From: Mycobacterium sherrisii
Lineage (GTDB): Bacteria > Actinomycetota > Actinomycetes > Mycobacteriales > Mycobacteriaceae
Length of the DNA stretch: 64,000 nucleotides
Assembly: GCF_002102355.1 (NCBI RefSeq)
Contig: NZ_LQPT01000070.1
Coordinates: 122,114 to 186,113, forward strand
Direction: 5' to 3'
Positions 36,820 through 56,737 of the stretch are shown piece after piece. Made by a program: the position numbers and the translations under genes. The first letter of the stretch is position 1. Each line of letters opens with the position of its first letter. The notes beneath the pieces are model-generated. The model was not told where the DNA came from. It worked only from the letters and a program-made list of their open reading frames with translations, and did not search any database.

Positions 36820-36823
36820 GGCG

Positions 36824-37693: not shown

Positions 37694-37694
37694 G

Positions 37695-38513: not shown

Positions 38514-38755
38514 TGCCCCCTCACGCCGGAGCCGCGCGCCATGCGACTGCGCGGATCGTGTCGCACGCCTCGCCCCCTCGCCGTCAGGCGGCCGGGAAAA
38601 GCCCCGCCTTGCCCCCGATTCACCTGTGTGACCTCCGACTCCCTACTGGCAAGTAGTAACGGAGACCACAGGAATGTACCCGATGGCCAAGCAGGTGTGA
38701 ACCGCATCCGCACAATTAACCCTTCGTCAACAACGGGCAAACGTTACAGTATCGA
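38514..38755 (-). promoter_or_regulatory. fadD5-yrbE1A intergenic region, possible internal promoter
   Basis: This 242-nt gap has no open gene. In M. tuberculosis promoter activity has been reported for the corresponding fadD5-yrbE1A interval. On the minus strand a TTGACG hexamer is present (complement of 38725-38730), but no matching -10 was clear at 16-18 nt, so no promoter position is claimed. A GC-rich stretch occupies the yrbE1A-proximal half. Confidence 0.4.
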
Positions 38756-41728: not shown

Positions 41729-41771
41729 GCGCGAAGCATAACGGGGGACGCGAAACCCGCAGCGCGGGGCG

Positions 41772-42272: not shown

Positions 42273-42319
42273 GCTGGTATTCCAGCACGGCTCGCCGGGC
42301 CGCCACGGGGCGCCACGGC

Positions 42320-43237
42320 CTAGTGACCGTAGAAGGCGCTCGTCAGGGCGCGGCCCTGCATCGTGAACAGTTGCTCGGTGGTCGACCACTCCGGTAGCAG
42401 CGAATCGAAGCCGTGACAGGTGCGGGCAAAGACGTGCAGTTCGGTGGCGACCCCGGCGTGCAGCAGCCGCAGCGCATAGTTGACGGCTTCGTCGCGGAAC
42501 GGGTCGATCTCCGCGCAGGTGATGAAAGCGGTTGGCAGGCCGCTTAATTCGCTGCGGCGCGCCGGCACGGCGGCCGGGGTCGCGGGCGTATCGCCCAAAT
42601 AGTGGTGCCACATCAGTTCGGCGGCCTCACCGTCGAAGGCCGGGCTGGTGCGAAATTCGGCCTTCGAGGCGGTGGCGCGATCGTCGAGCACCGGTTGGTG
42701 CAGCAGCTGGAACATCACGGGCGGCACCGATCCGTCGGTGGCGCGCTGTGCCAGGCACGCGGCCAGCGTGGCGCCCGCGCTGCTGCCCGCCACGGCCAGC
42801 CGCGTCGCATCGACGTCGAGCGCGCCGGCATGGTCGGCCACCCACCTCAGCACCGCGATCGCGTCGTCCAGCGCGGCCGGATACGGATGCTCGGGCGCCA
42901 GTCGGTAGTCGACCGATATCACGGTGCAGCGGCCGCGGCGCGCAAGTTCGGCGCACTGGCGGTGGTCGGTGTCGAGGTTGCCCAACGCGAATCCGCCTGC
43001 GTGGCAATAGATCACCACCGGCGCCGGCGATGGCCCGCCCCGATAGCTGCGGACCGGCACCCCGCCAAGGTCGTCGTTGCCGATCGCCACGCCGGGCAGC
43101 CGACCGGCGGCGTGGCGGCGGCGCTGGTCGAACGGCCCGCGCAGCGCCGCGATGGCTTCCCGGGTGAACGCGGTGCGGGTGGTCGCGATGGCGCGCAGCG
43201 CCGGATCGAGACGGTCGGCGCCGTCGAGTTCGCTCAT
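42320..43237 (-). CDS. HSL-family alpha/beta hydrolase (carboxylesterase)
   Basis: A 305-residue esterase of the hormone-sensitive-lipase family. The oxyanion motif reads 'VIYCHAGGFALGN' (HAGGF in place of the usual HGGGF), the nucleophile Ser is in 'AVAGSSAGATLAA', the Asp in 'TCAEIDPFRDEAV' and the His in 'TCHGFDSLL'; 'VDYRLAPEHPYPAALDDA' is a strong family marker. It resembles mycobacterial LipH/LipI-type enzymes acting on short acyl esters. ATG at 43237 fits; an open frame continues upstream without homology. Last gene of a leftward catabolic unit that begins at 48351. Confidence 0.9.
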   Translation of the reverse strand: MSELDGADRLDPALRAIATTRTAFTREAIAALRGPFDQRRRHAAGRLPGVAIGNDDLGGVPVRSYRGGPSPAPVVIYCHAGGFALGNLDTDHRQCAELARRGRCTVISVDYRLAPEHPYPAALDDAIAVLRWVADHAGALDVDATRLAVAGSSAGATLAACLAQRATDGSVPPVMFQLLHQPVLDDRATASKAEFRTSPAFDGEAAELMWHHYLGDTPATPAAVPARRSELSGLPTAFITCAEIDPFRDEAVNYALRLLHAGVATELHVFARTCHGFDSLLPEWSTTEQLFTMQGRALTSAFYGH

Positions 43238-43289
43238 CGGACCGGCCCGCCCGGCCCGGCTCCGACGATGCCGACCGCCAAGTCCGGTT

Positions 43290-44018
43290 TCATCGAATCT
43301 GCAGGCATTGCCCACCGTCGACAACCAGTTCCGACCCGGTGATGAACGAGGCCGCGTCGGACACCAAGAATGCGACCGCATCCGCGATTTCGGTTGGCCG
43401 CCCGAGTCGCCCGAACATCGCCGTCGCGGTCAGGCGCTGCTGTGTGGCCGCGTCGAGCATCGAGGTCGCGATCGGCCCTGGGAACACCGCGTTGACCCGG
43501 ATCCCGGACGGGCCGAGCTCGGCCGCCGCCGTTTGGGTCAGCCCGCGCAGCGCCCACTTCGAGGAGCCGTAGGCACAGTGCGTGGGGAAGGGACGGATCG
43601 CCCCGGTGCTGCAGATGTTGACGATGGCGGGATTCTCGGCCACTCGCAGTGCGGCGAGCGCGGCGCGCATACCCAGGAACGCTCCCAGACAATTGACCCG
43701 CCAAGCGCTTTCGAAATCCTCCGGCGTCTCGTCGGCCAGCGTGGCGCGGTGCAAGACGCCGGCGTTGTTGATCAGCACGCTCAGCCCACCGAATCGGTTC
43801 ACGGTTTTCTCGACGGCGATCTGCCATTGCCCGGGACTGGTCACGTCGAGTTCTACCGCGAGCAGCTCGCTGTCGCCCAGCTCGCCGACCTTGGCCGCCA
43901 CCTTGTCGGCTCGGACGTCACCGACGGTCACCGAATAGCCCTCGGCGCGAAGGCGTCTGGCGATGGCCCAGCCTTGGCCGCCCGCGGCGCCGGTGACGAG
44001 TGCGATGCGCCGGCTCAT
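43290..44018 (-). CDS. Short-chain dehydrogenase/reductase
   Basis: A 242-residue classical SDR. Cofactor motif 'LVTGAAGGQGWAIARRL', the strand-4 motif 'LINNAGV' and the active site 'ICSTGAIRPFPTHCAYGSSK' (catalytic Ser, then YxxxK) are all present, as is 'SELVVDGGQCL' at the end. It would oxidise a secondary alcohol or reduce a ketone with NAD(P). ATG at 44018 overlaps the stop of the preceding SnoaL-like remnant as ATGA. It lies in the P450/aldolase unit. The substrate is unknown. Confidence 0.9.
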   Translation of the reverse strand: MSRRIALVTGAAGGQGWAIARRLRAEGYSVTVGDVRADKVAAKVGELGDSELLAVELDVTSPGQWQIAVEKTVNRFGGLSVLINNAGVLHRATLADETPEDFESAWRVNCLGAFLGMRAALAALRVAENPAIVNICSTGAIRPFPTHCAYGSSKWALRGLTQTAAAELGPSGIRVNAVFPGPIATSMLDAATQQRLTATAMFGRLGRPTEIADAVAFLVSDAASFITGSELVVDGGQCLQIR

Positions 44019-44136
44019 GACGATGCCACCTCGGGGCCATCGGACGGGCCGTCACGCACGCAGTCCTCGATGTGCCACGGTCAAGGGCGAGCGCGTAGCC
44101 GGCGATCAATTCGCGAATCGGGTTGTCGTCGCTCAT
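44015..44136 (-). pseudogene. Deleted SnoaL-like (NTF2-fold) gene remnant
   Basis: An ATG at 44136, overlapping the aldolase stop as ATGA, begins 'MSDDNPIRELIAGYALALD', which looks like the N-terminus of a SnoaL-like protein. After about 19 codons the frame becomes nonsense. In another frame the last 20 codons before the SDR start read 'PWHIEDCVRDGPSDGPEVAS' and end in TGA that overlaps the SDR ATG, as a C-terminus should. The simplest reading is an internal deletion of roughly 300 bp that fused the two ends out of frame. Both translational couplings survived. The deletion size is inferred from the usual length of the family (130-150 residues). Confidence 0.65.
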
Positions 44137-44879
44137 TGGCCGGTTGCCTCGCGTAGGTGCTCGATCGCGCCGCGGCGCAGCGCCTGCGACTCGGCGGCCA
44201 GGGTGATCATCTGGAAGCCCAGCTGCGCCATAGCGTGCCCGGTTTCACCGTCATTGGCATGTATGCCGGTGACCAGGCCGGCCTGTGCGGCGACCCGATG
44301 GATGCGCACGATCGCGTTCAGCACGTCGGGGTGGCGGGCGGTCCCGACGGGCGGGTGGCCCATCGAGATCGCCAGATCGGCGGGCCCGACGTAGATTCCG
44401 GTCAGACCGCCGACCGCGCAGATCTCGGCGAGCCGGTCGACGGCCGCCGCGGTCTCGATCATCGCGAACACACTCACCCTGGCTTCGTGCGCGGCCGGGT
44501 CCGGGCCGAGGGCGGCGCGCAGGGGACCGAAACTGCGGACGCCGCGCGGCGGGTAACGGGTGGCGGCCACGGCCGCCGCGGCCTGCTCGGCCGACTCGAT
44601 CATCGCGATGAGGACGGCGTCGGCGCCGGCGTCAAGCACCCGGCCGATCGGGGCCGCGTCGGCGTTGGGTAGGCGCACCACGGTGGTGATTCGGACGTGC
44701 TCGAGACAGCGCAGCAAGCCGGCGATGTCGGCGTCGTCGAGGTAGCCGTGCTGGGCATCGAAGCCCACGTAATCGTACCCGGCACGCGCGAATTCCTGCG
44801 GCCCGATCAGCGTCGGCCCGGTGATCCAACCACCCCAGATCGGGGTGGTCGCGCTGCGCACCGCGCCGAACGCGCTCAC
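44133..44879 (-). CDS. HpcH/HpaI-family aldolase
   Basis: A 248-residue class II pyruvate aldolase. Active-site segments are 'YDYVGFDAQHGYLDDADIA' (the catalytic His), 'VRLPNADAAPIGRVLDAGAD' and 'GIYVGPADLAISMG' with metal-binding Glu in 'FAMIETAAAV'. Relatives cleave 4-hydroxy-2-keto acids to pyruvate and an aldehyde at the end of aromatic and other catabolic routes; the substrate here is unknown. GTG at 44879 overlaps the dehydrogenase stop. An aldehyde product could pass to the adjacent dehydrogenase, which is inference. Confidence 0.88.
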   Translation of the reverse strand: MSAFGAVRSATTPIWGGWITGPTLIGPQEFARAGYDYVGFDAQHGYLDDADIAGLLRCLEHVRITTVVRLPNADAAPIGRVLDAGADAVLIAMIESAEQAAAAVAATRYPPRGVRSFGPLRAALGPDPAAHEARVSVFAMIETAAAVDRLAEICAVGGLTGIYVGPADLAISMGHPPVGTARHPDVLNAIVRIHRVAAQAGLVTGIHANDGETGHAMAQLGFQMITLAAESQALRRGAIEHLREATGQ

Positions 44880-45844
44880 GACGCGATCGCGATCTTCACC
44901 CGCTCGGCGACCGGCCGGCAGGCCAGCTCGAAGGCGCCCTGGACGTCGTGAACGCCGAAGGTGTGCGTGAGGTAGCGGCCGAGCAACTCGGGATGGTCGG
45001 CGGCGAACTTGCCGGCGTCCTCGAGCATCCGTCGCCGGTCAAGCGTCACACCGGATTTCAGCGTCAGGTTGTTGCGCAGCATGAGACGCATGTTAACCGG
45101 ATACGCCTCGTCGTCGGCGACCCCGAAGTAGAACACGGTGCCGCCGGGAGCGGCGGCCGCAATAGCATGACCCAGCGTGGCGACTTGATGTCCGACGGCC
45201 TCGATCACGACATCGGCGCGGTCGCTGGGCGAAAGCTGATCGACCCACCGGTCGCTGGTGGCCCGTACCATGTCGTCGACGCCGAAAGTTGTTGCCAGAC
45301 TTCGCCGGTCGACAGGATCCACGCCGGTGACGCGGCGGGCGCCGGCCGCCTTGGCGAGATAGGAGAACAGCAGACCGATCGAGCCCTGACCGATGACCGC
45401 GACGTGCCGGCCGGCCAGGTCGGGCAGTTGCTCACACGCGTAGAGCACGCATGCCAGCGGCTGCAGCCCGACCGCCTGCGCGGGCAACAGCGCCGGATCG
45501 TAGGGCGCCAGGCCGTCGCCATGGCTGATCACCCGCTCCATCAGGCCGTCGAAACCGGAGGCCCAGCCCACCACGCGATCGCCGGGCCGGTGGTCGGGAT
45601 GCCGGCTGGCGATCACCTCGCCGGCCACCTCGTGAATCGGGAACCCGTCCTTCTCCGCCGCGCTGACGCCGTCATCACCAGGCAGCCTGCCCTTGGCGCC
45701 GCGAAAGGCCGGCAGATCGCTGCCGCACACCCCGGCGGCCAAGAACCGCAGCAGGACCTGACCGTCGGTGAGCTGCTCGGCGGTCTTCTCGGCGATGGCG
45801 GTCCTCTCGAACTGATACGGCGCGACGATCCGGTAGGACCACAC
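44876..45844 (-). CDS. Zinc-type alcohol dehydrogenase-like protein (MDR)
   Basis: A 322-residue medium-chain dehydrogenase. The catalytic zinc Cys is in 'AAGVCGSDLPAFRG' and the nucleotide fold reads 'VAVIGQGSIGLLFSYLAKAA'. The four-Cys structural zinc loop is not visible and the usual GHE is 'IHEVAGEV', so this is a short MDR variant. It would interconvert an alcohol and a carbonyl with NAD(P). GTG at 45844 follows the P450 stop by 1 nt. The C-terminus ends 'ACRPVAERVKIAIAS' and its stop overlaps the aldolase start. Confidence 0.85.
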   Translation of the reverse strand: MWSYRIVAPYQFERTAIAEKTAEQLTDGQVLLRFLAAGVCGSDLPAFRGAKGRLPGDDGVSAAEKDGFPIHEVAGEVIASRHPDHRPGDRVVGWASGFDGLMERVISHGDGLAPYDPALLPAQAVGLQPLACVLYACEQLPDLAGRHVAVIGQGSIGLLFSYLAKAAGARRVTGVDPVDRRSLATTFGVDDMVRATSDRWVDQLSPSDRADVVIEAVGHQVATLGHAIAAAAPGGTVFYFGVADDEAYPVNMRLMLRNNLTLKSGVTLDRRRMLEDAGKFAADHPELLGRYLTHTFGVHDVQGAFELACRPVAERVKIAIAS

Positions 45845-45845
45845 C

Positions 45846-47081
45846 TCAGACCTCCACCGGGATGCTGTTCCATCCCCACTGGAAACTGGACGGCGGCCGG
45901 GTGGCAGCCCGGCCGTTGATCGCGAAATCGGAGACTCGTCTGAGCCATTCCTGCACCAGCACAGTCACTTCCAGTCGAGCCAAATGAAAGCCGATGCAGA
46001 AATGCTGGCCGCGGCCGAAGACCAGTGAGCGGGTGATGGGCCGATTCCAGACGAACTCGTCGGGGTTTACGTACTCCCGCTCGTCGCGGTTGGCCGAGGC
46101 CAGCAGGGTGATCACCCGTTGGCCGTGGTGGATGGTCTGGCCGTGGATGGTGAAGGGCCGCCGCGCAGTTCGGGCGAACCATTGCGCGGGCGCGCAGTAC
46201 CGCAGCATCTCCTCCCTGGCCACCGGCACGGTGGCGGCGGGGTCGGCGCGCACGGCGGCGCACTGCTCGGGCCGCAGACTGAGCTCCCACAGCCCGTGGG
46301 AGACGATCTTCGGCACGGTTTCGGTGCCGCCGATGAAGATGCACAGCATTTGCGTTGCGGCTTCCACGTCGGACAGGGCGCTGCCGTCGGGCAGTCGGTA
46401 CCCGAGCAGACCGTCCACCACCGGCAACGGGCGCCCGGACTGGTCGGCTCGGCGCCGCCGTACCACCGGGATCAGGTATTCCAGGTAATTGGGACGGGCC
46501 TGCGCGGTGTCGACGCCCTCACCGGGCGCGGTCAGGCTCCCGGCATTGACGGCGGCCAGCACCTGCGGCGCGAGTTCGGTTGCGATGCCCAATAAGTCGC
46601 AGACCATTGAGGCCGCCACGATGCGGCCGTAGTCCTGGGTCAGGTCGAACGACCCTTGCGGTAGCAACTCGTCGAGACGCTCGTTGGCCAACTCCCGGAT
46701 CCGGGCCGCCAACCCGGCGACCGAGCGGGGCCGCAGCGGCGCCGAGTGCGCTCGCCGGATCTCGCTGTACAGGTCGGTGTCGAACACCGCGTGAAAGGGC
46801 AAGGGGTGCAACGGCGGATCCTCTACCGGCCCGCTGTTGTGCTTGGCCAGCACCGCCGCGGAGGGCAGCGTTCCCTCCGACGCCACGAAGGTTCCGTCGT
46901 TGAGCTCGAGCACCTGCCAGATGTCCTCGAACCGGGACAGCGCGAAGGTGTCCCATTGCGGCATGTAGTAGACGGGATACCGGTCGCGCAGAATTCGGTA
47001 GTACGGCAACGGGTTTGCCATCACGTCCGCGTCGAACGGATCGTAGGCGAAGGCCGGGTCCGCCGATGTCGGTGCGGTCAC
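45846..47081 (-). CDS. Cytochrome P450
   Basis: A 411-residue soluble bacterial P450. The I-helix is 'MLCIFIGGTETVPKIVSHGL' (the usual acidic-Thr pair is TET), the K-helix ExxR lies in 'AREEMLRYCAP', and the haem loop is 'VFGRGQHFCIGFHLARLEV', with the Cys thiolate ligand. It needs a ferredoxin and reductase, which are not encoded nearby. GTG at 47081 overlaps the preceding gene stop as GTGA; the frame is open further upstream without homology. It is the oxygenase of the leftward catabolic unit, so it probably starts attack on the substrate. I cannot assign a CYP family. Confidence 0.93.
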   Translation of the reverse strand: MTAPTSADPAFAYDPFDADVMANPLPYYRILRDRYPVYYMPQWDTFALSRFEDIWQVLELNDGTFVASEGTLPSAAVLAKHNSGPVEDPPLHPLPFHAVFDTDLYSEIRRAHSAPLRPRSVAGLAARIRELANERLDELLPQGSFDLTQDYGRIVAASMVCDLLGIATELAPQVLAAVNAGSLTAPGEGVDTAQARPNYLEYLIPVVRRRRADQSGRPLPVVDGLLGYRLPDGSALSDVEAATQMLCIFIGGTETVPKIVSHGLWELSLRPEQCAAVRADPAATVPVAREEMLRYCAPAQWFARTARRPFTIHGQTIHHGQRVITLLASANRDEREYVNPDEFVWNRPITRSLVFGRGQHFCIGFHLARLEVTVLVQEWLRRVSDFAINGRAATRPPSSFQWGWNSIPVEV

Positions 47082-47782
47082 TGCAGGGGTGAGGGCGGTA
47101 GGGCTTGCAGGATCGAATCTTCCCAGCCGTCGCGCAGGGCCGGCGCCACGCTCATCCAGGTGACGATCTCGGCCGGCGGGCTTTCCTGCCACGACGGGTA
47201 GTGGTTGGCGAAGCACTCCCAGCCGCCGTCCAACGCCCAGTAGTGGATGACCTCGTTGTAGCGAAACGTGGTGGTGAACGAGCCCAGCCAGCGTTTGCCG
47301 GTGCGCTCCGACCACGGTACGTAGAGGCGCTCCAGCTCGCGGATGTAGTCGTCTTGGCGGCCCGGCTTGGTCTGCATGATCTCTTGAATCACCAGTGGCG
47401 CAGTGAAATTGGCCTCGCGCAGCTGTGTCAGGGTCTTGTTGCTGGGGCCGGGATACATGATCCGTCCCTCACCGGAGGCGCCAATCTCGGTCAGATAGGC
47501 CGACCAGTTGCCCGCCGCGGACTCGTGACTTCCGCCTCGGGACTGGGCCGCGCCGATCCGCGCGTAGTCGGCGAACCCGTCGATCTCCCAGATGATCGTC
47601 ACCTGCGGCCAGTGCCCGTTGTACGGCGTGGTTTCCCAGATCGCAAACAGCCGCGCCCCGAGCTGATCCATCATCGGTCGATAGGTATCGGCGAAGACCT
47701 CAGTGAATCGGTCGCCGGATCCGCAGCCCAGCGAAATCGTCTCGTGCAGGTAGAGCAGGGTGTGGCGATAGTACTTCTTCAT
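47078..47782 (-). CDS. Unrecognised protein, possibly dimeric alpha-beta barrel (NIPSNAP-like)
   Basis: A 234-residue cytoplasmic protein without signal or membrane segment. It begins 'MKKYYRHTLLYLHETISLGC' and has two similar-looking halves: 'FAIWETTPYNGHWPQVTIIW' in the first and 'RWLGSFTTTFRYNEVIHYWA' in the second, each followed by an aromatic-rich helix ('DGFADYARIGAAQ', 'GGWECFANHYPSWQ'). This two-repeat pattern suggests a duplicated ferredoxin-like barrel of the NIPSNAP type, but I am not certain. It lies directly upstream of and overlaps the P450 gene. A possible role is in handling or isomerising the P450 substrate; unknown. Confidence 0.6.
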   Translation of the reverse strand: MKKYYRHTLLYLHETISLGCGSGDRFTEVFADTYRPMMDQLGARLFAIWETTPYNGHWPQVTIIWEIDGFADYARIGAAQSRGGSHESAAGNWSAYLTEIGASGEGRIMYPGPSNKTLTQLREANFTAPLVIQEIMQTKPGRQDDYIRELERLYVPWSERTGKRWLGSFTTTFRYNEVIHYWALDGGWECFANHYPSWQESPPAEIVTWMSVAPALRDGWEDSILQALPPSPLQ

Positions 47783-48351
47783 CAGTCCAGCCGGACCGGA
47801 TCTGACCCGGGACCCGCGCTACTCGCTTCGCACAGCAGCGTCTCGGTGGGTTCGACCAGGGCGCAAGGGATCCCGGCCGCGGCCAGGGCGTAGCTCTTGA
47901 ATCGTTGTGCCGCCGCGCTGAGCACGTGCTGGGCCCGTGTCATGCTGCGGTTGACACCCAATGGCCACCCCTGGCCCCACAGGGCGACCTCGGTCAGGCG
48001 GTCGTCCAGCGAGGCGAACACTCGGTCACGTACCCGTGGATCCGCGGCGAACGCCTCGGCGCTGACGGCCAGGGTCTGGCTCGGGGACTCGGTCACCTCG
48101 TCGTCGGAAACGGAATCGGCCACCCGGAGGCCGAGGATGCGCAGCGGCCGAGTATCGCAGCTGCCGGGCAACAGCACGGTCACCTCCCAGCCCGCCATGC
48201 TCCGGTCGTAGAGCCATCCGCCGGCCGCGTGCACGACGTCGACGGCGCTCGCCGCGACCACGTCCAGGCGGTAGCGCAGGCATTCACCTCGGCTGGCCGG
48301 CACGGCACCGGCGTGCCTGCTCGGGCTGATGTCGAACGTCGGAGTGACCAT
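47782..48351 (-). CDS. Unrecognised 189-residue protein, first gene of the P450 unit
   Basis: I do not recognise this protein. It has no signal peptide or membrane helix. Notable segments are 'AVDVVHAAGGWLYDRSMAGW', 'VTVLLPGSCDTRPLRILGLR' and a C-terminal 'AQHVLSAAAQRFKSYALAAA'. ATG at 48351 is the start, and its stop overlaps the next ATG as TGATG, so it is translationally coupled to the unknown gene and the P450. A copy of the 26-bp repeated element lies 125 nt upstream. Coupling suggests it works with the pathway rather than being spurious. Confidence 0.65.
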   Translation of the reverse strand: MVTPTFDISPSRHAGAVPASRGECLRYRLDVVAASAVDVVHAAGGWLYDRSMAGWEVTVLLPGSCDTRPLRILGLRVADSVSDDEVTESPSQTLAVSAEAFAADPRVRDRVFASLDDRLTEVALWGQGWPLGVNRSMTRAQHVLSAAAQRFKSYALAAAGIPCALVEPTETLLCEASSAGPGSDPVRLD

Positions 48352-48475
48352 CGAATCCGTTCCTCACCGCCACACCGAGGAGTGCGTGGGCTCCAAGGCA
48401 GCTGCAGCGCTTGTCATGGGCTCTGAAAAGGGCTGGCGCCGCCTCACACCCGGTGACGCGGCTCACCGCACAGCG

Positions 48476-48501
48476 TGACACTTCGGTCGGATTTTGTAAA
48501 G
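48476..48501. promoter_or_regulatory. 26-bp repeated element, site 1 (upstream of the P450 unit)
   Basis: TGACACTT-N9-TTTGTAAAG, located 125 nt before the first gene of the leftward P450 unit. The preceding flank GCTCACCGCACAGCG (48461-48475) is also shared with site 2 apart from one base. The ends form an imperfect dyad (TnACA...TGTnA), which fits an operator. Confidence 0.65.
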
Positions 48502-48515
48502 GTTCTGCGGAGCAG

Positions 48516-49685
48516 TCAGCAGTCGCGTCGGGCCTTGAGTTCAGCCAGGATTTCCTCGGTGTGCTGGCCCAACTGCGGGGCCACGGCGCGGGGTGCCCAC
48601 GGCGTGCCGTGGAAGTCCGCCGGGGTCGCGACCATGGCGACACCGGCTTCGCCGTCGGGCACGTCGACGATGCCGCCAGCGGCGTGAAACTGCTCGTCGG
48701 CCACCACGTCTTCTAGCGAATTAATCGGTGACCAGAAGAAATCCGGTTCCGTCGCGAACGTCTCGGCCCATTCGTCCAGGGCGCGGGTCGCAAAGATCGC
48801 GTCCAACTCGGCGATCAGCTCGGGACCGTTGGCGAACCGGGCCTGCGCGTCGCTGAATCTCGGATCGTCGATCCAGTCGGGCCGGTTGACCACACGGCAC
48901 AGCGGCGGCCAGTGCCGGTCGCCTTCCAGGCCGACGATCCAGAACCGCCGACCGTCGCCCGCCGCGTAGTTGTTCATGCACGGATTGCCCATCGTTTCGC
49001 GCTCTCCGACTGCGATGGGTTGACCGGTCAGCAGATAGGTGTTCAGGTCGAAGCTCACCGTGTAGGCGCCCTGGCGGTACAGGGAGGTGGTGACCAGCTG
49101 CCCCGTTCCGGTGCGTTCGCGGGCGAGCAGCGCCGCGCAGATCGCCGCGGCCAGCGTCATTCCGGCCGAGTGATCGCCCATGCCGCCACGCTGGAACGGC
49201 GGCGTCTGGCCGGGCCGGGTGAGCAGGTGTGCCAGCCCGGCCCGCGACCAGAATGCGGCGACGTCGTAGGCGGCGCGCTCGGCGTCGGGACCGGTCTCCC
49301 CGTACCCGGTGATCAGGCCGTAGACCAGGCGGGGGTGGTGCGCGGATAGCGATTCGTAGTCCAGGCCGAGACGGTGCAAGGCGCCGGGACGGACGTTGGT
49401 CACGAAAACGTCTGCCTCGGCCAGCAATTCGAAAGCGATGCCTCGGCCCTCGTCGCTGGTGAGGTCCAGCACGATGCTGCGCTTGTTGCGGTTGTCCATC
49501 TCGAACGGCGGGTTGAGGCCCAGGTCGCAGCCCAGCATCCGGCCGAACATCCGTCCCGGATCGCCGGCCGGCGGCTCGATCTTGATGACGTCGGCGCCCC
49601 AGTCGGCCAAAATGGCACTGGCGGCCGGACCAGCCACCCACACTCCGAGTTCGACGACCTTGAGGCCTGCTACCGGTCCTGCCAT
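48516..49685 (-). CDS. Family III CoA-transferase (CaiB/BaiF)
   Basis: A 389-residue CoA-transferase. The start 'AGLKVVELGVWVAGPAASAI' followed by 'LADWGADVIKIEPPAGD' is the family signature, and the catalytic Asp is expected in 'ERAAYDVAAFWSRAGLAHLL'. These enzymes move CoA between carboxylic acids, for example to activate a substrate at the expense of another acyl-CoA. Length is usual. ATG at 49685 is clear. It lies between the secreted repeat protein and the P450 unit on the same strand, with 164 nt before the next gene, so it may be separately transcribed. Confidence 0.9.
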   Translation of the reverse strand: MAGPVAGLKVVELGVWVAGPAASAILADWGADVIKIEPPAGDPGRMFGRMLGCDLGLNPPFEMDNRNKRSIVLDLTSDEGRGIAFELLAEADVFVTNVRPGALHRLGLDYESLSAHHPRLVYGLITGYGETGPDAERAAYDVAAFWSRAGLAHLLTRPGQTPPFQRGGMGDHSAGMTLAAAICAALLARERTGTGQLVTTSLYRQGAYTVSFDLNTYLLTGQPIAVGERETMGNPCMNNYAAGDGRRFWIVGLEGDRHWPPLCRVVNRPDWIDDPRFSDAQARFANGPELIAELDAIFATRALDEWAETFATEPDFFWSPINSLEDVVADEQFHAAGGIVDVPDGEAGVAMVATPADFHGTPWAPRAVAPQLGQHTEEILAELKARRDC

Positions 49686-49770
49686 GGCTATGTTCCTACT
49701 CCGTGCCGTCCCTGTCGCCGTGCTGCGGGTCGGTGCAGCGCGGGGACAGGGGTGACGAGCGTGGGAGTGA

Positions 49771-50253
49771 TTAGAGGCCCGGCCACGGGCCCAGTGGCGC
49801 CGGATTGGCCGCCGGAGCCTGGTTCAGGACGGGCAGGCCGGGAGTGCCACCGAACCCCGGAGCGCCACCGAGACCAGGCACGCCACCCAGGCCCGGGGCA
49901 CCGCCCAGGCCCGGGGCCCCGCCCAGGCCTTGCAACCCAAACGGCATCTGGCCGTTGGCTAGTGAGGCGATCATACCCGGGCACTGTGACTGAATCGCCA
50001 TGCCGGCGACCATGCTGACGATGCCGGGCGGAAGACCGGAGCTGCCGGACAACTGCGAGGCGATGGACGCCAGGGTGGCGCCCGGCTTCACCAGCATCGG
50101 ACAGATCGACTGTCCGATCGCGGTGAGCGAGCCGGTGGGCGGGTCGGCGTGCGCCGGCCCGCCCGCCCCGACCGCGGATAGTCCCAGTGTCAAAGCGAGC
50201 GCCGGAACCGCCGCCCCAACGGCGGCGCGGCGGCGGTTGGTCAGTGCTGTCAT
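49771..50253 (-). CDS. Secreted Gly/Pro-rich repeat protein
   Basis: A 160-residue exported protein. A signal peptide ('AAVGAAVPALALTLGLSAVG', cleavage near AHA-DPP) is followed by a small domain with two cysteines ('GQSICPMLV', 'MAIQSQCPGM') that may form a disulphide, and a C-terminal run of imperfect GGAPGL/GGVPGL repeats (about residues 108-142). I do not recognise the family; small two-Cys mycobacterial secreted proteins with Pro/Gly tails are common at the envelope. ATG at 50253 has GGGGGG(A) upstream. A 328-nt AT-rich gap precedes it. Confidence 0.75.
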   Translation of the reverse strand: MTALTNRRRAAVGAAVPALALTLGLSAVGAGGPAHADPPTGSLTAIGQSICPMLVKPGATLASIASQLSGSSGLPPGIVSMVAGMAIQSQCPGMIASLANGQMPFGLQGLGGAPGLGGAPGLGGVPGLGGAPGFGGTPGLPVLNQAPAANPAPLGPWPGL

Positions 50254-50581
50254 TCGTCCCCCCGGTTAATTGTCAAGAATTGCTAACTGCATTCATTTCG
50301 CTTCGATAACAATGGGGGTTTTTTGTCACGTTTACGACACGTTTAGGTCAAGCTTTGTGATCTGCCTGTTTCCTTATCGTTGTCTCAAATGCATTGCTTC
50401 GCTTTGTTATTTGCTGCAAGCCGTCAATATGTCCCCGTTCACCCACGCGGCGTCTGTGCGGCATTTGCACATTGCCCATATCGAGACGGCGGCAACCACC
50501 GATGTCGGTTAGGGCCTTATTTTTCGAAGCTTTTCCGGGCGGCCCCGCTGCGGCCGTGGCTGACGCCTTAACCTGGGCATC
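50254..50581. other. AT-rich divergent intergenic region
   Basis: These 328 bases separate the secreted protein (leftward) and the DUF427 gene (rightward) and are the most AT-rich stretch of this part of the window (for example 50270-50420). A TTGACAATT is present on the minus strand near 50270, too close to the start to be its -35. No gene, hairpin terminator or operator was convincing. Confidence 0.5.
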
Positions 50582-51247
50582 ATGAGTTTGGTCGCCGGAC
50601 ATGGCCCGCTCAGCCGCGAACCGGCCGGGCGGTTTTCTCCCCCGCTGCCTGGCGAGGTCGTCTATATCGAGCCGCATCCGCGCCGCGTGCAGGCGCTGCG
50701 GGGCGGGCGTCCGGTGATCGACACCGAGGAAGTGCTGCTGGTGCATCGGCGGGGGTGCCCCCTGAGCTACCTGTTTCGCGCCGAGGACGTCGGCGATCTG
50801 CCGGCCGAACCCGAGCCGGCGGCACCGGGTTTCGTACACGTGCCGTGGGACGCGGTCGACACCTGGGTGGAGGAAGGCCGCGAGCTCGTGCACTACCCGC
50901 CCAATCCCTACCACCGGGTGGACTGCCGGCCGACCACACGCCGCCTGCGCGTCCGGCTCGGGGGCACCACGCTGGTCGACACCGACGACACCGTCATCGT
51001 GTTCGAGACCGCGCTGGCCCCGCGACTCTATGTGCACCCGTCACGTGTTCGCACCGAGCTGCTGCGCCGCTCGCAGACGGTGACCTACTGCAACTACAAG
51101 GGTCACGCGACGTACTGGTCGGCGGGCGAGGTCGAGGACGTCGCCTGGAGTTACCCGGATCCGCCGCCGGAAAGCCTTCCCATCAAAGGGTTTTTCAGCT
51201 TCGATGAGTCCAAGGCGGAGGTAATCGCGCAGCTACCCGCTTCTTGA
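50582..51247 (+). CDS. Tandem DUF427 domain protein
   Basis: A 221-residue cytoplasmic protein with two DUF427-type repeats. The first contains 'PRRVQALRGGRPVIDTEEVL' and 'RAEDVGDLP'; the second contains 'TRRLRVRLGGTTLVDTDDTV' and 'LYVHPSRV', ending with the family motif 'YCNYKGHATYW'. DUF427 proteins are widespread and of unknown function, though some are enzyme-like. ATG at 50582 fits the family. It converges on the acyl-CoA dehydrogenase gene. There is no clear link to the neighbouring catabolic genes. Confidence 0.88.
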   Translation: MSLVAGHGPLSREPAGRFSPPLPGEVVYIEPHPRRVQALRGGRPVIDTEEVLLVHRRGCPLSYLFRAEDVGDLPAEPEPAAPGFVHVPWDAVDTWVEEGRELVHYPPNPYHRVDCRPTTRRLRVRLGGTTLVDTDDTVIVFETALAPRLYVHPSRVRTELLRRSQTVTYCNYKGHATYWSAGEVEDVAWSYPDPPPESLPIKGFFSFDESKAEVIAQLPAS

Positions 51248-51300
51248 CACCGCGAGACTGCGACAGGCGACGCATTTCGCCCGAGCAGGGACGGCGATAG

Positions 51301-52482
51301 TTACCGTCTCGCGGCAGGACTGGGGCGGCCGAGCTTCAGCTCGTGCTGGGCGATCATGTTGCGGAACACCTCCAGGGTGCCGCCGTAGATCCCGGCGGGT
51401 ACACCGTGGCGGAAGATGAACTCGATGGCCCCATTGTCGGCGGAACCCGTGGTGTCGGTGGGCAATGCCGACGCCGTCCCAAGCATGTCCATCAATTCCG
51501 GCGACACCTCGCGCATGGTCTGGATCAGCGCCACCCGTCCGTACATGCCCGGCGTCGACAGCGCCGCCTCGATTCGCGCCAAGCTGCGCCCGAGCCGGTA
51601 CTTCGTCGACTCGTCGTCGATTGGGCGCCGCCCGTCGGTGTCCGGTGCAGACAGCACCGCGGCAACCCCATCGGCCGCCTCGGCCATCAAGTTGCCGTGC
51701 TCGGACATCATCGAAATGTTCTGCAGCCCATGGGTTTGCGGTTCGGCGATGCCGTGCTCGGCGTCGAGGGCGAACCGCATCACCGTCCAGCCCCCGTTGA
51801 CCTCGCCGATCCGGTGGTGATCGTCGACCCGCACATCGCTGTAGTACACGATGTTGGTGCGGTCTCCGTCGAGCGTGCGGATGCCCTGAATCTCGATGCC
51901 CGGCGAATCCAGGGGCACCAGAAACATGGTCAGGTTCTTGTGCTTACGTCCCTGCGGGTCGGTGTTGGTGAGCAGGAAGACGTACTGGGCGTTCTGCGCG
52001 TTGGAGGTGAACATCTTCGACCCGTTGATGACCCAGCCGTCCCCGTCCCGGACGGCCCGGGTCTTGCACGTCGCGACGTCGGAACCGCCCTCGGGTTCGG
52101 TGTAGCCCAGGCACAACCGGATTTCGCCGGCCAGCACCCCCGGCAGCACCGCGTCGACGAGTGCGGGAGCCCCGAATTGCTTGACCAGTCGCGCGACGAC
52201 GGCGGTGGTGCCCCAGTGGTACCAGGGCGTGTGGGCCCGACCGATCTCGAGGTGAAAGATCCGCCGGCGCACCGGATCGAATCCACCTTCGGGTTCTAGC
52301 AAAAAGTCCGAGGAAAGATAACCCGCTGCGCCCAGCGCCAAATGTACTGGCTCGCTGAAGTTTTCACCCGTCTCGCGGTCTCGCCGGCGCACCTCGTCGG
52401 TGACGTGTTCGGCGACGAACGCCCGGGTCTGGTCGAAGAACTCCTGTTCCTCGGGCGAGAGTTCGACACGGGAGAAGTCCAT
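51301..52482 (-). CDS. Acyl-CoA dehydrogenase
   Basis: A 393-residue flavoenzyme of the acyl-CoA dehydrogenase family. It begins 'MDFSRVELSPEEQEFFDQTR', has the FAD/substrate loop 'LCLGYTEPEGGSDVATCKTR' and 'WVINGSKMFTSNAQNAQYVF', and the C-terminal 'GIYGGTLEVFRNMIAQHELK'. It introduces a double bond alpha-beta to a CoA thioester. The catalytic Glu is not obvious by eye, as in several mycobacterial FadE proteins. ATG at 52482 overlaps the preceding stop. It is third in a leftward unit with a thioesterase and an F420-type oxidoreductase. Confidence 0.92.
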   Translation of the reverse strand: MDFSRVELSPEEQEFFDQTRAFVAEHVTDEVRRRDRETGENFSEPVHLALGAAGYLSSDFLLEPEGGFDPVRRRIFHLEIGRAHTPWYHWGTTAVVARLVKQFGAPALVDAVLPGVLAGEIRLCLGYTEPEGGSDVATCKTRAVRDGDGWVINGSKMFTSNAQNAQYVFLLTNTDPQGRKHKNLTMFLVPLDSPGIEIQGIRTLDGDRTNIVYYSDVRVDDHHRIGEVNGGWTVMRFALDAEHGIAEPQTHGLQNISMMSEHGNLMAEAADGVAAVLSAPDTDGRRPIDDESTKYRLGRSLARIEAALSTPGMYGRVALIQTMREVSPELMDMLGTASALPTDTTGSADNGAIEFIFRHGVPAGIYGGTLEVFRNMIAQHELKLGRPSPAARR

Positions 52483-53402
52483 CAGATCGCGTCGATCACC
52501 AGCGTGCGGAAGCGGTCCAGGGTCTCCAGCGCGTGCGCCATGCTGTCGCCGGGCAGGTGGACGCTGACCCAGCTGACCCCGAGTTTCGCCAGTCGGTCCA
52601 GGCCGTCGAGGTAGGCGTCGGCGTTGAACCCGTCCCCGGTCGGGCTGCCGCCGTCGAAGTTCGTGAAGGTGATGTCGACTGCCGCGAAGTCCCGGCCCGC
52701 CGCATCGCAGCGGCGCCGCAGATCGTCGATGCCGGCGGCGAGTGTGTCCACCGAGTCGACTACGGCGGTGCCGGCGGTCTGCGCCAGTTGCAGCGCGGCG
52801 GGGAATGGGCACCAGCCGTCACCGTACTGTGCCACCCGCTGGCGTGCGGCGGCGGTGTTGCCGCCGATCCAGATCGGCGGATGCGGGCTGCTCAGCGGCC
52901 GGGGGTGCGCGGTGATGCCGCGGGCGCTGAAATGCTTTCCCTCATAGGTGATGTCGTCGCCGGTCCAGATGGACCGAATCACCTGCAGGGCCTCCTCGAA
53001 CAGCTCGGCGCGCTCGTCGTAGCTCACCCCCAACGCCGCGAACTCGCGTTTGAGGTAGCCCACGCCCACCGCGAGGGTGAACCGACCGCCGGAGAGCAGG
53101 TCGAGGGTGGCGGCGGATTTGGCGACCACGAACGGGTTGCGGTAGGGCAGCACGACAATGTTGGGAATCAGCCGCAGCGTCGAGGTGGCCGCGGCCGCGA
53201 AAGCCAAAGCGACAAAAGGATCTAACGCGTCATGCCCGCCCGCCTCCAACCATCGCTGCGAGGGCGCCGGGTGGTCGGTGAAACCGAAGCCGTGAATGCC
53301 GGCCGCCTCGGCCGCCGCGGCCATCTTGGCGATGCCATCCGCGCTCACCAGCTCCCGGTTGTACGGGTGGCTGTGCATCGGGTGCGTGATGGTGAAGTGC
53401 AT
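52482..53402 (-). CDS. LLM-class (probable F420-dependent) oxidoreductase
   Basis: A 306-residue luciferase-like TIM-barrel protein. It begins 'MHFTITHPMHSHPYNRELVS' and carries 'FGFTDHPAPS', 'RLIPNIVVLPYRNPFVVAKS' and 'DLLSGGRFTLAVGVGYLKRE', typical of actinobacterial TIGR03619-type F420-dependent members rather than FMN monooxygenases. It would transfer hydride to or from a substrate using F420, but the cofactor is inferred. ATG at 53402 is clear. It sits between the thioesterase and the acyl-CoA dehydrogenase with 12-nt and overlapping junctions. Confidence 0.88.
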   Translation of the reverse strand: MHFTITHPMHSHPYNRELVSADGIAKMAAAAEAAGIHGFGFTDHPAPSQRWLEAGGHDALDPFVALAFAAAATSTLRLIPNIVVLPYRNPFVVAKSAATLDLLSGGRFTLAVGVGYLKREFAALGVSYDERAELFEEALQVIRSIWTGDDITYEGKHFSARGITAHPRPLSSPHPPIWIGGNTAAARQRVAQYGDGWCPFPAALQLAQTAGTAVVDSVDTLAAGIDDLRRRCDAAGRDFAAVDITFTNFDGGSPTGDGFNADAYLDGLDRLAKLGVSWVSVHLPGDSMAHALETLDRFRTLVIDAI

Positions 53403-53414
53403 CGCGAGCCGGGT

Positions 53415-54305
53415 TCAGAAGCGGGCGCGCGCGTCGATCGCGGTGTCGCTGGTGCGCAACGGGCGGATCAGCGCCTCTTGCGCGAAGGAGCAGAGCAGGT
53501 CGCCCTGTTCGGCATGTACGGTGCCGCGCACGTAGGACATGCCCGCGCCGACCTGGGTGCTCTCGTGGCTGTAGAGCAGCCAGCCGTCCCAGCGCACCGG
53601 CTCGTGGAAGGCCACCGAGATGCTCATCGGGGCGGTGGACACGGTCAGATGGGCTTGGGCCGTGCCGATACCCGGATGCGCCCGCATCGTGGTGGAGATG
53701 CCCAGATGCCCGGTGAAGTAGGCCAGCAGCGCCTTGGCCAGGTCGTCGCGGGCAGGGACGGGGTCATAGTGCAGCCACGCATAGAGCTCCGGCGGCCCGA
53801 TCTCGTCGGGGCTGTTGACGTCGACGACGTCGACCAACCGCAGCTCCCGCCCGACCATCGGCATCGGCGAGTGGTTGGCGTCGGCGGGAGCGGCGACATC
53901 CGGACGAGGCAGGTGGTGGCGGATGACGTCGTCGGTCGGGACGTCGGCCAGCACGGTGACGCTCAGGCAGCGCCGCCCGCTCTGGTGCACGGCGACCAGG
54001 GCGGTCGCGGTGGACCGGCCCTCGGCCACCACGTCGAGGACGAGTTCGATCGGCGGGCCGACGACCACGGCCCGGGAAAACACGGCGTGCGCCGAGCGCA
54101 CCGACTTGTCCGGGAATCTCTTGGCCACCGCGACGATCGCCTGGGCCAGCACCTGCGTGCCCTCCACGACCTGACGTTCGTCGCCGCCGGCGATCCCGGT
54201 GTCCGCGGTGAACCGGTCGTCCCCGGCGCCCTGCACGTCGAACAGATCCAACAGGCCCTGCACCGTCCACTCGGTCTGCTGCGATTCCTCGGACGCTCTG
54301 GTCAA
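53415..54305 (-). CDS. Acyl-CoA thioesterase II-like double hotdog protein
   Basis: A 296-residue TesB-type thioesterase. The first hotdog has 'RFTADTGIAGGDERQVVEGT' and 'RSAHAVFSRAVVVGPPIELV'; the second has 'HEPVRWDGWLLYSHESTQVG' and ends 'FAQEALIRPL', matching the family. It releases fatty or other acids from CoA. The TTG at 54305 is the only start near the conserved region; no ATG is in frame upstream. Site 2 of the 26-bp element is 38 nt upstream. It leads the unit with the oxidoreductase and dehydrogenase. Confidence 0.88.
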   Translation of the reverse strand: MTRASEESQQTEWTVQGLLDLFDVQGAGDDRFTADTGIAGGDERQVVEGTQVLAQAIVAVAKRFPDKSVRSAHAVFSRAVVVGPPIELVLDVVAEGRSTATALVAVHQSGRRCLSVTVLADVPTDDVIRHHLPRPDVAAPADANHSPMPMVGRELRLVDVVDVNSPDEIGPPELYAWLHYDPVPARDDLAKALLAYFTGHLGISTTMRAHPGIGTAQAHLTVSTAPMSISVAFHEPVRWDGWLLYSHESTQVGAGMSYVRGTVHAEQGDLLCSFAQEALIRPLRTSDTAIDARARF

Positions 54306-54343
54306 CTCGGCTCCATTCCTCGTCGGCAGCTCATCGCACAGCG

Positions 54344-54369
54344 TGACACTTTGGCCCAGATTTGTAAAG
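54344..54369. promoter_or_regulatory. 26-bp repeated element, site 2 (before the thioesterase unit)
   Basis: TGACACTT-N9-TTTGTAAAG with the flank GCTCATCGCACAGCG (54329-54343), which is identical to the flank of site 1 except for one base. It lies 38 nt upstream of the leftward thioesterase start, in the same orientation relative to its genes as site 1. Probable operator. Confidence 0.7.
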
Positions 54370-54433
54370 ATTGGCTAACAATGGGAGGCGGGGCGGGCGC
54401 TGGCATCGGATTGACATCGACGCCGCGGTTGCA

Positions 54434-54459
54434 TGACACTTCTGCGGTGTTTTGTAAAG
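54434..54459. promoter_or_regulatory. 26-bp repeated element, site 3 (before the SMP-30 unit)
   Basis: TGACACTT-N9-TTTGTAAAG, ending 7 nt before the ATG of the rightward SMP-30 gene and 90 bp from site 2. The GTAAAG end falls where a ribosome site would be, so binding here would block expression. The repeat appears in the opposite orientation relative to its gene compared with sites 1 and 2. Confidence 0.7.
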
Positions 54460-54466
54460 TGAGCCG

Positions 54467-55297
54467 ATGATCCCCGAGCAGCTGGCCAACGGGTTCTGCT
54501 TCGGCGAAGGCCCCCGCTGGTTCGAGGGCCTGCTGTGGTTCTCCGATCTGCTGGGCGAGGCGGTCCACACCTCCACCCTGAGCGGCGCGTTGACCACGCT
54601 GCCGCTGCCGGGCCATTCCCCGTCCGGGCTGGGTTTTCGGCCCGCCGGGTCGCTGCTGATCGCGTCCGCCGAGGACCGCAAGGTATTACGTTACGACGGC
54701 GAGACCATCGTGCAGATCGCCGATCTGTCCGGCCTGGTCCCGGCCAACCTCGGCGACATGGTCGTCGACCACCTGGGGCGCGCCTACATCGGCTCCCAGG
54801 CATTCACCGGCGGCGTGATCGTGCGGCTCGACCCCGGCGCCGACGACCCCGCTGGCGTCACCGTCGTCGCCAAGGACCTCGACTTCCCCAACGGGATGGT
54901 CATCACGCCCGACCACCGGACGCTGATCGTTGCCGAATCGATCGGCCGGCGACTGACCGCGTTCACGATCGACGATGACGGCGCCCTACACGACCGGCGG
55001 GTGTTCGCCGACGGCCTGGACGGCCCGCCCGACGGGATCGCGCTGGACGCCGAGGGCGGCGTCTGGACATCGATGACGCTGGCCCACCAATTCCAGCGGA
55101 TCGTGGCGGGTGGAACCGTGACCGACCGCATCGACATGGGCGATCGCGTCGCCGTCGCGTGCGCGCTGGGCGGCCCCGACCGCCGCGTCCTGTTCCTGCT
55201 GTCGAGCACCGACGCCTATCCTCAGCGGCTAGTGGGCACCCGGCTGTCGCGGCTGGACGCCGTGCCGGTCGCCGCGCCCGGCGCCGGGTTGCCCTGA
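54467..55297 (+). CDS. SMP-30/gluconolactonase-like lactone hydrolase
   Basis: A 276-residue six-bladed beta-propeller of the SMP-30/gluconolactonase family. Metal-binding motifs are seen as 'GFCFGEGPRWFEGLLWF' (Glu), 'DLDFPNGMVITPDHRTLIVA' (Asn) and 'DGPPDGIALDAEGGVW' (Asp). These enzymes open lactones with a divalent metal, for example the product of a Baeyer-Villiger step or a sugar lactone. ATG at 54467 lies directly after site 3. It precedes a thioesterase and a TetR regulator, all in the same direction, so it is likely part of one regulated unit. Confidence 0.9.
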   Translation: MIPEQLANGFCFGEGPRWFEGLLWFSDLLGEAVHTSTLSGALTTLPLPGHSPSGLGFRPAGSLLIASAEDRKVLRYDGETIVQIADLSGLVPANLGDMVVDHLGRAYIGSQAFTGGVIVRLDPGADDPAGVTVVAKDLDFPNGMVITPDHRTLIVAESIGRRLTAFTIDDDGALHDRRVFADGLDGPPDGIALDAEGGVWTSMTLAHQFQRIVAGGTVTDRIDMGDRVAVACALGGPDRRVLFLLSSTDAYPQRLVGTRLSRLDAVPVAAPGAGLP

Positions 55298-55312
55298 GAT
55301 AGCGAGAAAGAC

Positions 55313-56131
55313 GTGACCGACTCCTACTACGAGCTGATCGACACCGACGCACTCGGCGAGAAATTCCGGGCGACCGACCTGGCGCGCGGCACCTGGTCGG
55401 CGGCCATCCAGCACGGCGGGCCGGTCTCGGCGCTGCTGGCCCGGGCGCTGGAACGGTGCGAGCAGCGCGACGACCCCCGCCTGTCGCGCGTCGTCGTCGA
55501 CCTGCTGGGTGGGGTACCGGCCGAGGGCGACCTCTGGGTGCGCGCGCAGCTGCAGCGGCCCGGCAAACAGATCGAGCTCCTCACCGCCGAGATGCTGGCC
55601 CCCGGGCCCGACGGCGAGCCCCGACCGGTGGCGCGCGCCAGCGGGTGGCGGCTGCAGCAGCAGGACACCCAGGCAATCGCGCACGGCGCGGCCGAGTCGC
55701 CGCGGCCGCGGACCGACGCCCACAGCCGCAACCTCAAGGCCCGCGAGTGGGACCGCAATTACGTGCACAGCCTGGATTGGCTGTGGTTGACCGAACCGCT
55801 GACGCCCGGCGCGGGCGAGTCGTGGATCAAGCCGACGGTCGACCTGGTCAAGGGCGAGACCATGACGCAGCTGGAACGGTTGTTCGCGGTGGCCGACTGC
55901 GCCAACGGCATCGGCAGCAAGCTCGACATCACCAAGTGGACGTTTCTGAACACAGATCTGGCGGTGCACGTTTTTCGCGTCCCGGACGGAGAGTGGGTCG
56001 GTATTCGCGCCGAGACCAGCTACGGGCCGGACGGCATTGGCACGACCGTCGGCACGCTGCACGACGAGCAGGGCGCCGTCGGCGCCATCCAGCAATCGGT
56101 GTTGGTGCGCCGCCGACCCGGGTCGGCCTGA
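55313..56131 (+). CDS. Thioesterase-superfamily protein (TesB-like)
   Basis: A 272-residue double hotdog protein. It opens 'TDSYYELIDTDALGEKFRAT' and has 'WSAAIQHGGPVSALLARALE' and 'DLLGGVPAEGDLWVRAQLQR' in the first half and 'TKWTFLNTDLAVHVFRVPDG' and 'ETSYGPDGIGTTVGTLHDEQ' in the second, the pattern of acyl-CoA thioesterase/acyl-CoA-binding domains found in many mycobacterial proteins. GTG at 55313 lies 15 nt after the lactonase stop. It probably hydrolyses or binds an acyl-CoA intermediate. Confidence 0.85.
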   Translation: MTDSYYELIDTDALGEKFRATDLARGTWSAAIQHGGPVSALLARALERCEQRDDPRLSRVVVDLLGGVPAEGDLWVRAQLQRPGKQIELLTAEMLAPGPDGEPRPVARASGWRLQQQDTQAIAHGAAESPRPRTDAHSRNLKAREWDRNYVHSLDWLWLTEPLTPGAGESWIKPTVDLVKGETMTQLERLFAVADCANGIGSKLDITKWTFLNTDLAVHVFRVPDGEWVGIRAETSYGPDGIGTTVGTLHDEQGAVGAIQQSVLVRRRPGSA

Positions 56132-56185
56132 CGTGGGGGTGCAAGCGCCGTGGCTAGTCCGGCAACACTTCGTAAAGTTTCTGAT

Positions 56186-56737
56186 ATGACCCACCCGGCG
56201 CAGGCCCTGGCCGTCACCGATACTGACACGTCGACGCGTCAGCGGATCCTGTTGGCCACCGCCGAAGTGCTCGGCCGAAACGGCAAGACCAAGCTCAGCC
56301 TGTCCGAGGTCGCCGCCCAGGCCGGGGTCTCCCGGCCCACGCTGTACCGCTGGTTCGCCTCCAAGGAGGAGTTGCTGTCGGCGTTTTCCCAATACGAACG
56401 ACAGCTTTTCGAAAGCGGTCTGGTCAAGGCCACCGCCGGGCTCAAAGGGTACGACAAGGTCGACGCCGTGCTGCGCTTCATCGTCGACTACCAGCACTCC
56501 TACTCCGGGGTGCGGATGGTCGACGTCGAACCCGAGCACACCATTGCCCAGTTCTCTCATGTCATCCCACAGATGCGGGACGGGTTGCAACGGCATTTGC
56601 CGGGTCCCAACGCCGCGGTGAAGGCGGCGACAGTGATCCGAATCGCCATCTCGCACTACATCGTCCGCAGTGACGACGCCGAGCAGTTCCTGGCGCAGCT
56701 GCGCCACGCCGTCGGCATCAAGCCGGCCGCCGACTGA
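56186..56737 (+). CDS. TetR-family transcriptional regulator (candidate regulator of the 26-bp sites)
   Basis: A 183-residue TetR protein. The helix-turn-helix is 'SLSEVAAQAGVSRPTLYRWF' after 'TRQRILLATAEVLGRNG'. The ligand domain is helical, with 'LRFIVDYQHSYSGVRMVDVE'. ATG at 56186 is used; a GTG at 56150 is also in frame and has a purine-rich upstream. Just before this ATG lies AACACTT-C-GTAAAG, a compressed variant of the 26-bp element (11 bp shorter in the spacer, about one helical turn), consistent with autoregulation, though it may be chance. It is convergent with the FAD oxidase and last in the SMP-30 unit. Regulatory assignment is inference. Confidence 0.82.
   Translation: MTHPAQALAVTDTDTSTRQRILLATAEVLGRNGKTKLSLSEVAAQAGVSRPTLYRWFASKEELLSAFSQYERQLFESGLVKATAGLKGYDKVDAVLRFIVDYQHSYSGVRMVDVEPEHTIAQFSHVIPQMRDGLQRHLPGPNAAVKAATVIRIAISHYIVRSDDAEQFLAQLRHAVGIKPAAD

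Follow-up and report, generated by a model that had tools for sequence, protein, structure and literature searches.

What acts on a 26-bp element that recurs upstream of three catabolic transcription units is the question raised by a 64,000-nucleotide stretch of the Mycobacterium sherrisii genome (contig NZ_LQPT01000070.1, positions 122,114 to 186,113), referred to here as the window. The element is defined by the pattern TGACACTT-N9-TTTGTAAAG. Three exact copies, all on the plus strand, lie at 48476–48501 (site 1), 54344–54369 (site 2) and 54434–54459 (site 3), which is 5′ of a minus-strand P450 unit, of a minus-strand thioesterase unit and of a unit coding for SMP-30, thioesterase and TetR proteins, respectively. 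An earlier note on this DNA (the original prediction) had reported the copies and their placement upstream of the three units, which the present analysis bears out, and had proposed that they define one TetR-controlled regulon. We consider it probable that the element is the operator of the TetR-family repressor encoded at 56186–56737.

Besides sites 1–3, the window contains no further match at up to three mismatches, and three matches were reached in none of 100 shuffles of the window. In the whole genome (5,562,166 bases in 128 contigs), the same three sites are the sole matches at this threshold; the pattern read backwards gives two. The genome-wide scan proposed in the original prediction thus returned just three matches in 5.56 Mb, so the motif does not occur frequently at random positions. 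Three copies might also reflect a recent repeat, a mobile element or chance, and the 15-bp flank that sites 1 and 2 share with one mismatch (GCTCACCGCACAGCG versus GCTCATCGCACAGCG), present as the prediction had described it, would fit such an origin. However, the spacers of the copies differ, their positions are conserved in relatives, no shuffle reproduces the three matches, and the shared flank is accounted for by the predicted minus-strand −10 region and start found at both sites, rather than by an additional part of the operator. We regard this origin as vanishingly improbable. When 269 distinct sites are combined into one motif, the outer dyad TnACA...TGTnA noted previously scores highest as symmetry axis, but only four of six conserved column pairs match; the element is only a partial palindrome.

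At up to two mismatches, the motif is present in 68 of 88 genomes of the same genus (this genome counted) versus 0 of 60 genomes from other genera of the order, and the backwards control pattern matches 11 of 148 genomes by our count. A set of 100 loci (L064–L163), composed of 80 named Mycobacterium loci found via the TetR protein and 20 stretches from further genomes, contains 303 sites at up to three mismatches in 1.95 Mb, compared with one in single-base shuffles of 30 loci; the loci overlap in species (L065 and L144 are overlapping stretches) and the site counts are not independent. The nearest named relatives of the TetR protein are those of M. triplex, M. genavense and M. ahvazicum, at 93%.

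The positions of the sites relative to genes were determined using gene calls from our own codon-usage script. For 288 of the 306 sites (window counted), the neighbouring gene points away from the site on at least one side, at any distance; 15 sites are inside a predicted gene and three have no such neighbour. The sites can be divided into those before SMP-30 on the same strand (73), before the TesB-like thioesterase on the opposite strand (88), before the 190-aa protein heading the P450 unit on the opposite strand (69) and before tetR on the same strand (36, with the site end exactly 8 nt from the start in 32), and a remainder of 40. The core is kept less strictly in the tetR class and in the remainder. 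As the classes were collected by core match at up to three mismatches, core conservation within them is partly built in.

In a gene-centred check on the 80 named loci, the 350 bp preceding every called orthologue were searched, again at up to three mismatches. A site precedes the head gene of the P450 unit in 57 of 57 cases, 44 of them exact, and the figure of 57 also holds at up to two mismatches. For SMP-30, sites were found in 66 of 72 cases (53 exact), and for the thioesterase in 73 of 74 (60 exact; the miss is L068), where the 350-bp stretch can also include site 3. Every site has the orientation seen in the window and none the opposite one; the reversed-core control gave 0 of 203. Footprinting of the upstream gaps, which the original prediction had called for, thus finds the sites kept before orthologous first genes in related mycobacteria.

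An element in such a position could be just a promoter, that is, a −35/−10 pair read by an ordinary or an alternative sigma factor, and good hexamers are found within it. The predicted promoters of the P450 unit (48472–48500) and the thioesterase unit (54340–54368), both on the minus strand with TTTACA-N17-CACGCT, lie in sites 1 and 2, and that of the SMP-30 unit (54411–54440, plus strand, TTGACA-N18-GACACT) has its −10 in the left block of site 3. In the opposite-strand classes, at least five of six matches to TTGACA combined with A and T at −10 positions 2 and 6 were found for 77 of 88 thioesterase-class and 68 of 69 P450-class sites. Among the 73 sites of the SMP-30 class, 68 have TTGACA at a single fixed distance, and GACACT, the left block, follows 18 bp on in 70. 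The hexamer TAAAGT 7 nt before tetR in the window would also suit a promoter. These predicted promoters nonetheless face opposite ways and draw on different portions of the element, and the core is still common to the three target classes; a bound protein is the best explanation for a constraint shared in this way, and this favours an operator over a promoter alone. The restriction of the element to three places in this genome and its absence from the 60 genomes of other genera searched speak against a simple promoter as well. As the whole story, a promoter was rejected because one core is shared under opposite and differing promoters, and we hold it to be quite improbable.

A compressed copy of the element, AACACTT-C-GTAAAG, had been described just before the tetR ATG. 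The string (AACACTTCGTAAAG) is present at 56164–56177, but it appears to be the remnant of a full site. Many relatives carry TGACAC-N11-TTcGTAAAG at the same place, followed by 8 nt and then ATG, and the ATACTT or ACACTT preceding cGTAAAG starts within the spacer of the full site. A shortened operator variant was ruled out, since the relatives hold the full 26-bp site there and the ACACTT of the window belongs to the spacer. In the window, the degenerate site extends over 56152–56177 on the plus strand; its right block, TTCGTAAAG at 56169–56177, has one mismatch, and its left block mismatches at five of eight positions. The likely −10 is TAAAGT at 56173–56178. Judged from these comparisons, the string is a worn full-length site that has kept its right block, with the −10 hexamer, and whose left block has decayed. 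The tetR gene could still be controlled through site 3, which heads its unit.

The association of the site with tetR itself was followed in 81 loci, counting a full site at up to two mismatches in the left and three in the right block, a right block alone at up to two, and seeking an in-frame start with gaps of 7–9 nt, of which the best was used. A full site lies 7–8 nt before the tetR start in 37 loci, the right block alone in 25 more (window included) and the left block only in two. In L143 (Candidatus Mycobacterium methanotrophicum), an exact site is found at tetR, although the gene calls of the 20.5-kb locus include no homologue of SMP-30 or P450. In genome G004, the cluster is split in two: SMP-30 and the genes around it lie at 4.71 Mb, TetR lies at 0.17 Mb together with P450 and NIPSNAP genes, and there is an exact site at each place. 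G004 contains a single close homologue of the TetR protein, and the next match has an E-value of 6e-9. L151 and L155 encode TetR paralogues (60–62% identity) whose called starts are preceded by a site at 8 and 2 nt, respectively, and a paralogue in L185 (53%) has a 3-mismatch site 32 nt above the protein match. The TetR protein of the window (183 aa, plus strand) matches PF00440 (4.1e-13, 49.3 bits, cut-off 24) and reaches no NCBIfam cut-off. Residues V48–R55 are invariant across 30 aligned TetR sequences and, by analogy with other TetR proteins, may form the recognition helix.

Outlying hits in the genomes led to a further target, an acyl-CoA ligase gene with a small gene downstream. Its upstream regions were compared at up to two mismatches with TKACACT-N10-TTTGTAAAG, a pattern looser than the main one and shaped on the earlier genome hits. 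The 40 regions comprise 39 of the 71 ligase matches plus G074; outside them are G007 and G046, the source of the query, whose ligase carries the site. A site was found in 21 of the 40, in 20 of them 23–34 nt before the start used, the twenty-first being G074, where the start is unreliable. All 21 are among the 26 regions with a ligase of at least 79% identity (G074 unscored), and the other 14 regions, with ligases of at most 77% identity, contain none. The five of the 26 without a site are those of this genome (G000), G031, G060, G012 and G015. In the TetR-less G015, the ligase site has four mismatches, as expected if the regulator went first; yet of the TetR-bearing genomes, G012 shows no match and G060 just one with four mismatches on the other strand, and the case of G015 therefore says little. 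The ligase was ruled out as a target in the genome of the window, where the best upstream match has eight mismatches to the core and seven to the looser pattern; the target seems to have been lost here and in G031. In the ligase upstream regions L199 (G000:C70:82400-83100) and L196, TACACTATG is followed at once by TTCGTAGAG, as though this clade had lost 7 bp from the spacer of a full site.

The distribution among species at first links the motif closely to the TetR protein. A homologue (E ≤ 1e-20) is present in 75 of the 88 same-genus genomes, and the motif (at most two mismatches) in 68 of these 75 versus 0 of the 13 TetR-less genomes (Fisher test, 68/7 versus 0/13, 6e-11, a value that ignores relatedness and the joint loss of targets). 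Several observations weigh against assigning the element to this TetR protein. All 13 TetR-less genomes also lack homologues of SMP-30 (E ≤ 1e-30) and of the acyl-CoA dehydrogenase (E ≤ 1e-80); because regulator, targets and sites vanish together, species co-occurrence alone cannot name the TetR protein, and it was dropped as proof of the regulator, being confounded by relatedness and shared target loss. In seven of the 75 genomes with the TetR protein, no site is present at up to two mismatches. The 9–14-kb stretches of these seven contain one 3-mismatch site and two 4-mismatch candidates upstream of tetR or CaiB, the other four having none; the acyl-CoA dehydrogenase is missing from all seven, and SMP-30 from all but G055, which has a 40% match, so that TetR exists without these targets. 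No site precedes SMP-30 in six of the 72 cases (L091, L126, L128, L129, L131 and L141) or tetR directly in 17 of the 81 loci, and the ligase site is absent at up to two mismatches in the TetR-bearing G012, G031 and G060 and in this genome. In addition, the partial palindromy of the element is unusual for a TetR homodimer, and the genome has 128 TetR_N matches, so that another TetR might act here.

A different trans-acting regulator might accordingly bind the site, tetR being merely among its targets, and the confounded co-occurrence, the 17 loci and the many TetR_N matches would all be compatible with it. On the other side, tetR retains the site in L143 and in the split cluster of G004, TetR paralogues of several genomes are preceded by it, and another regulator would need to have been lost in step with the cluster. 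We find such a regulator unlikely. The proposal of a TetR-controlled regulon therefore holds as far as a specific element common to three units is concerned, and the TetR protein of 56186–56737 is its likely regulator, as suggested by the sites tied to tetR in 37 of 81 loci and by the split G004 cluster, although co-occurrence by itself does not name it.

If the element is the operator of this TetR protein, TetR would, without inducer, be bound to TGACACTT-N9-TTTGTAAAG and would exclude RNA polymerase, because the site covers both the −35 and the −10 of each predicted minus-strand promoter and, in front of SMP-30, the predicted −10. Release would come from a pathway intermediate, which might be an acyl-CoA or a lactone, and since tetR is part of the third unit, the switch would control itself. 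The TnACA half-sites lie about 19 bp apart centre to centre, nearly two turns, which is too far for a compact TetR palindrome; a pair of dimers on one site would be preferred over a single dimer on a compact palindrome. In a more far-reaching version, the single-domain TetR would read a genuinely asymmetric operator of 26 bp, each half presenting different bases, by means of an unlike-bound dimer pair or a heterodimer with a paralogue, two TetR copies being present in one cluster in several relatives, and the element would double as core promoter, its left block being the −10 of one side and its right block the −35 of the other. This version seems to us rather doubtful.

Described regulators of mycobacterial catabolism were compared with this system. 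KstR2, a TetR protein, represses a regulon of 15 cholesterol catabolism genes (PMC3068626). As characterized there, it resembles the present case in being a local TetR repressor with three sites per genome and with operators in the promoter gaps of several catabolic units, but its operator is a compact 14-bp palindrome, AnCAAGnnCTTGnT, unlike the 26-bp element. No match to AnCAAGnnCTTGnT was found in the window, nor to the KstR motif. The TetR protein scores 26.1 bits with the KstR model (cut-off 280), which represents KstR and not KstR2. BkaR, which controls branched-chain keto-acid genes, is described as an autoregulated TetR protein with a local regulon (PMC3920632); autoregulation of the TetR protein of the window is probable. 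The BkaR operator is a dimer-bound palindrome, GTTA(N)T(N4)A(N)TAAC (PMC3920632), without a match in the window. The operators of KstR2, KstR and BkaR, none of which occurs in the window, were thus ruled out as the identity of the sites.

Mce3R may be compared in description and not in letters: a non-palindromic operator of about 25 bp by an mce operon is reported for it (PMC11667970), showing that a TetR-type repressor can use such a site, and the present element has 26 bp and is partly asymmetric. Mce3R is, however, one chain with two TetR units (PMC11667970), and the protein of the window has 183 aa and one TetR_N stretch. Mce3R is also the best PDB sequence match of this protein (2.1e-7); a kinship was rejected, the similarity being at the general TetR level only. 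The passages considered from PMC2277422 give no defined Mce3R site. The 11 predicted mycobacterial TetR motifs of PMC4482099 likewise lie in upstream gaps of conserved TetR genes, but they are palindromes only, at divergently placed conserved TetR genes, and were set apart by description rather than letter by letter. No earlier description of the motif letters or of the gene set was found in the open-licence papers searched. The original prediction, which knew the motif from no described mycobacterial regulator, agrees with this, and the KstR2 and BkaR operators do not match it. The system would represent a new local TetR regulon of an otherwise ordinary kind, in which only the partly asymmetric operator is unusual.

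According to our gene calls, the three units hold 9, 3 and 3 genes, which makes 15, instead of the 13 or so first estimated. The P450 unit (41288–48351, minus strand) is a presumed operon of nine genes, as judged from strand and spacing, for the 190-aa protein, a NIPSNAP-like protein (below the Pfam cut-off), a cytochrome P450, a zinc alcohol dehydrogenase, an HpcH/HpaI aldolase, a short-chain dehydrogenase/reductase, an esterase, a 4HBT thioesterase and a polyketide cyclase-like protein. Profile matches identify the products of the second unit (51301–54305, minus strand) as a TesB-like thioesterase, an F420-type LLM oxidoreductase and an acyl-CoA dehydrogenase; the thioesterase start was set at TTG 54305, the choice of the gene caller being 54263. 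In the third unit, an SMP-30/gluconolactonase-like protein and a two-domain acyl-CoA thioesterase (54467–56131, plus strand; profile matches) precede tetR. Such a gene set points to a lipid-like or terpenoid compound that is oxidized, opened at a ring or lactone and degraded in CoA-dependent steps, and it is plausible that the three units belong to one pathway. PDB searches with the P450 and TetR proteins named no substrate.

The cluster varies among relatives. In L064, L112 and L146, an additional open reading frame of about 160 codons was called between sites 2 and 3, and the spacing is 546–588 bp instead of 90 bp. Bigger clusters add aldehyde dehydrogenase, APH/EcKL-type kinases, GH3 glycosidase, a putative cyclase, an FMO-like (flavin-containing) monooxygenase and wax-ester synthase. 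Two TetR paralogues are found in one enlarged cluster in L151, L153 and L155, with a GH3 glycosidase added in L151 and aldehyde dehydrogenase and APH/EcKL kinases in L155. L161 (a contig of G049) has a 49%-identical TetR protein amid several P450-like genes and one exact site, perhaps a duplicated regulon.

The cluster is adjoined by an operon of the yrbE/mce type (28461–40297; mce and yrbE as read from the translations) with a fadD5-like ligase gene, which scores 997 bits against the FadD5 model (cut-off 733), and by a GntR regulator gene at 40585–41280. We take this yrbE/mce/fadD5/GntR set to match the mce1 locus and the corresponding place in M. tuberculosis to be Rv0161–Rv0166, presumably without most of these catabolic genes. 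The catabolic block thus sits by a lipid-import system, and the adjoining locus looks like mce1.

The operator would give a TetR protein of which no earlier description was found a defined regulon of 15 genes, with further units in relatives, beside an mce-type lipid-uptake locus. The regulon would tie together a gene block whose regulator, SMP-30 and acyl-CoA dehydrogenase are jointly absent from 13 of the 88 same-genus genomes. With the operator known, the substrate could be sought through the inducer of a reporter. The site, embedded in promoters and partly asymmetric, would offer a clean case for how a one-domain TetR protein reads DNA; if the asymmetric reading were true, separate chains would do what Mce3R does by fusion.

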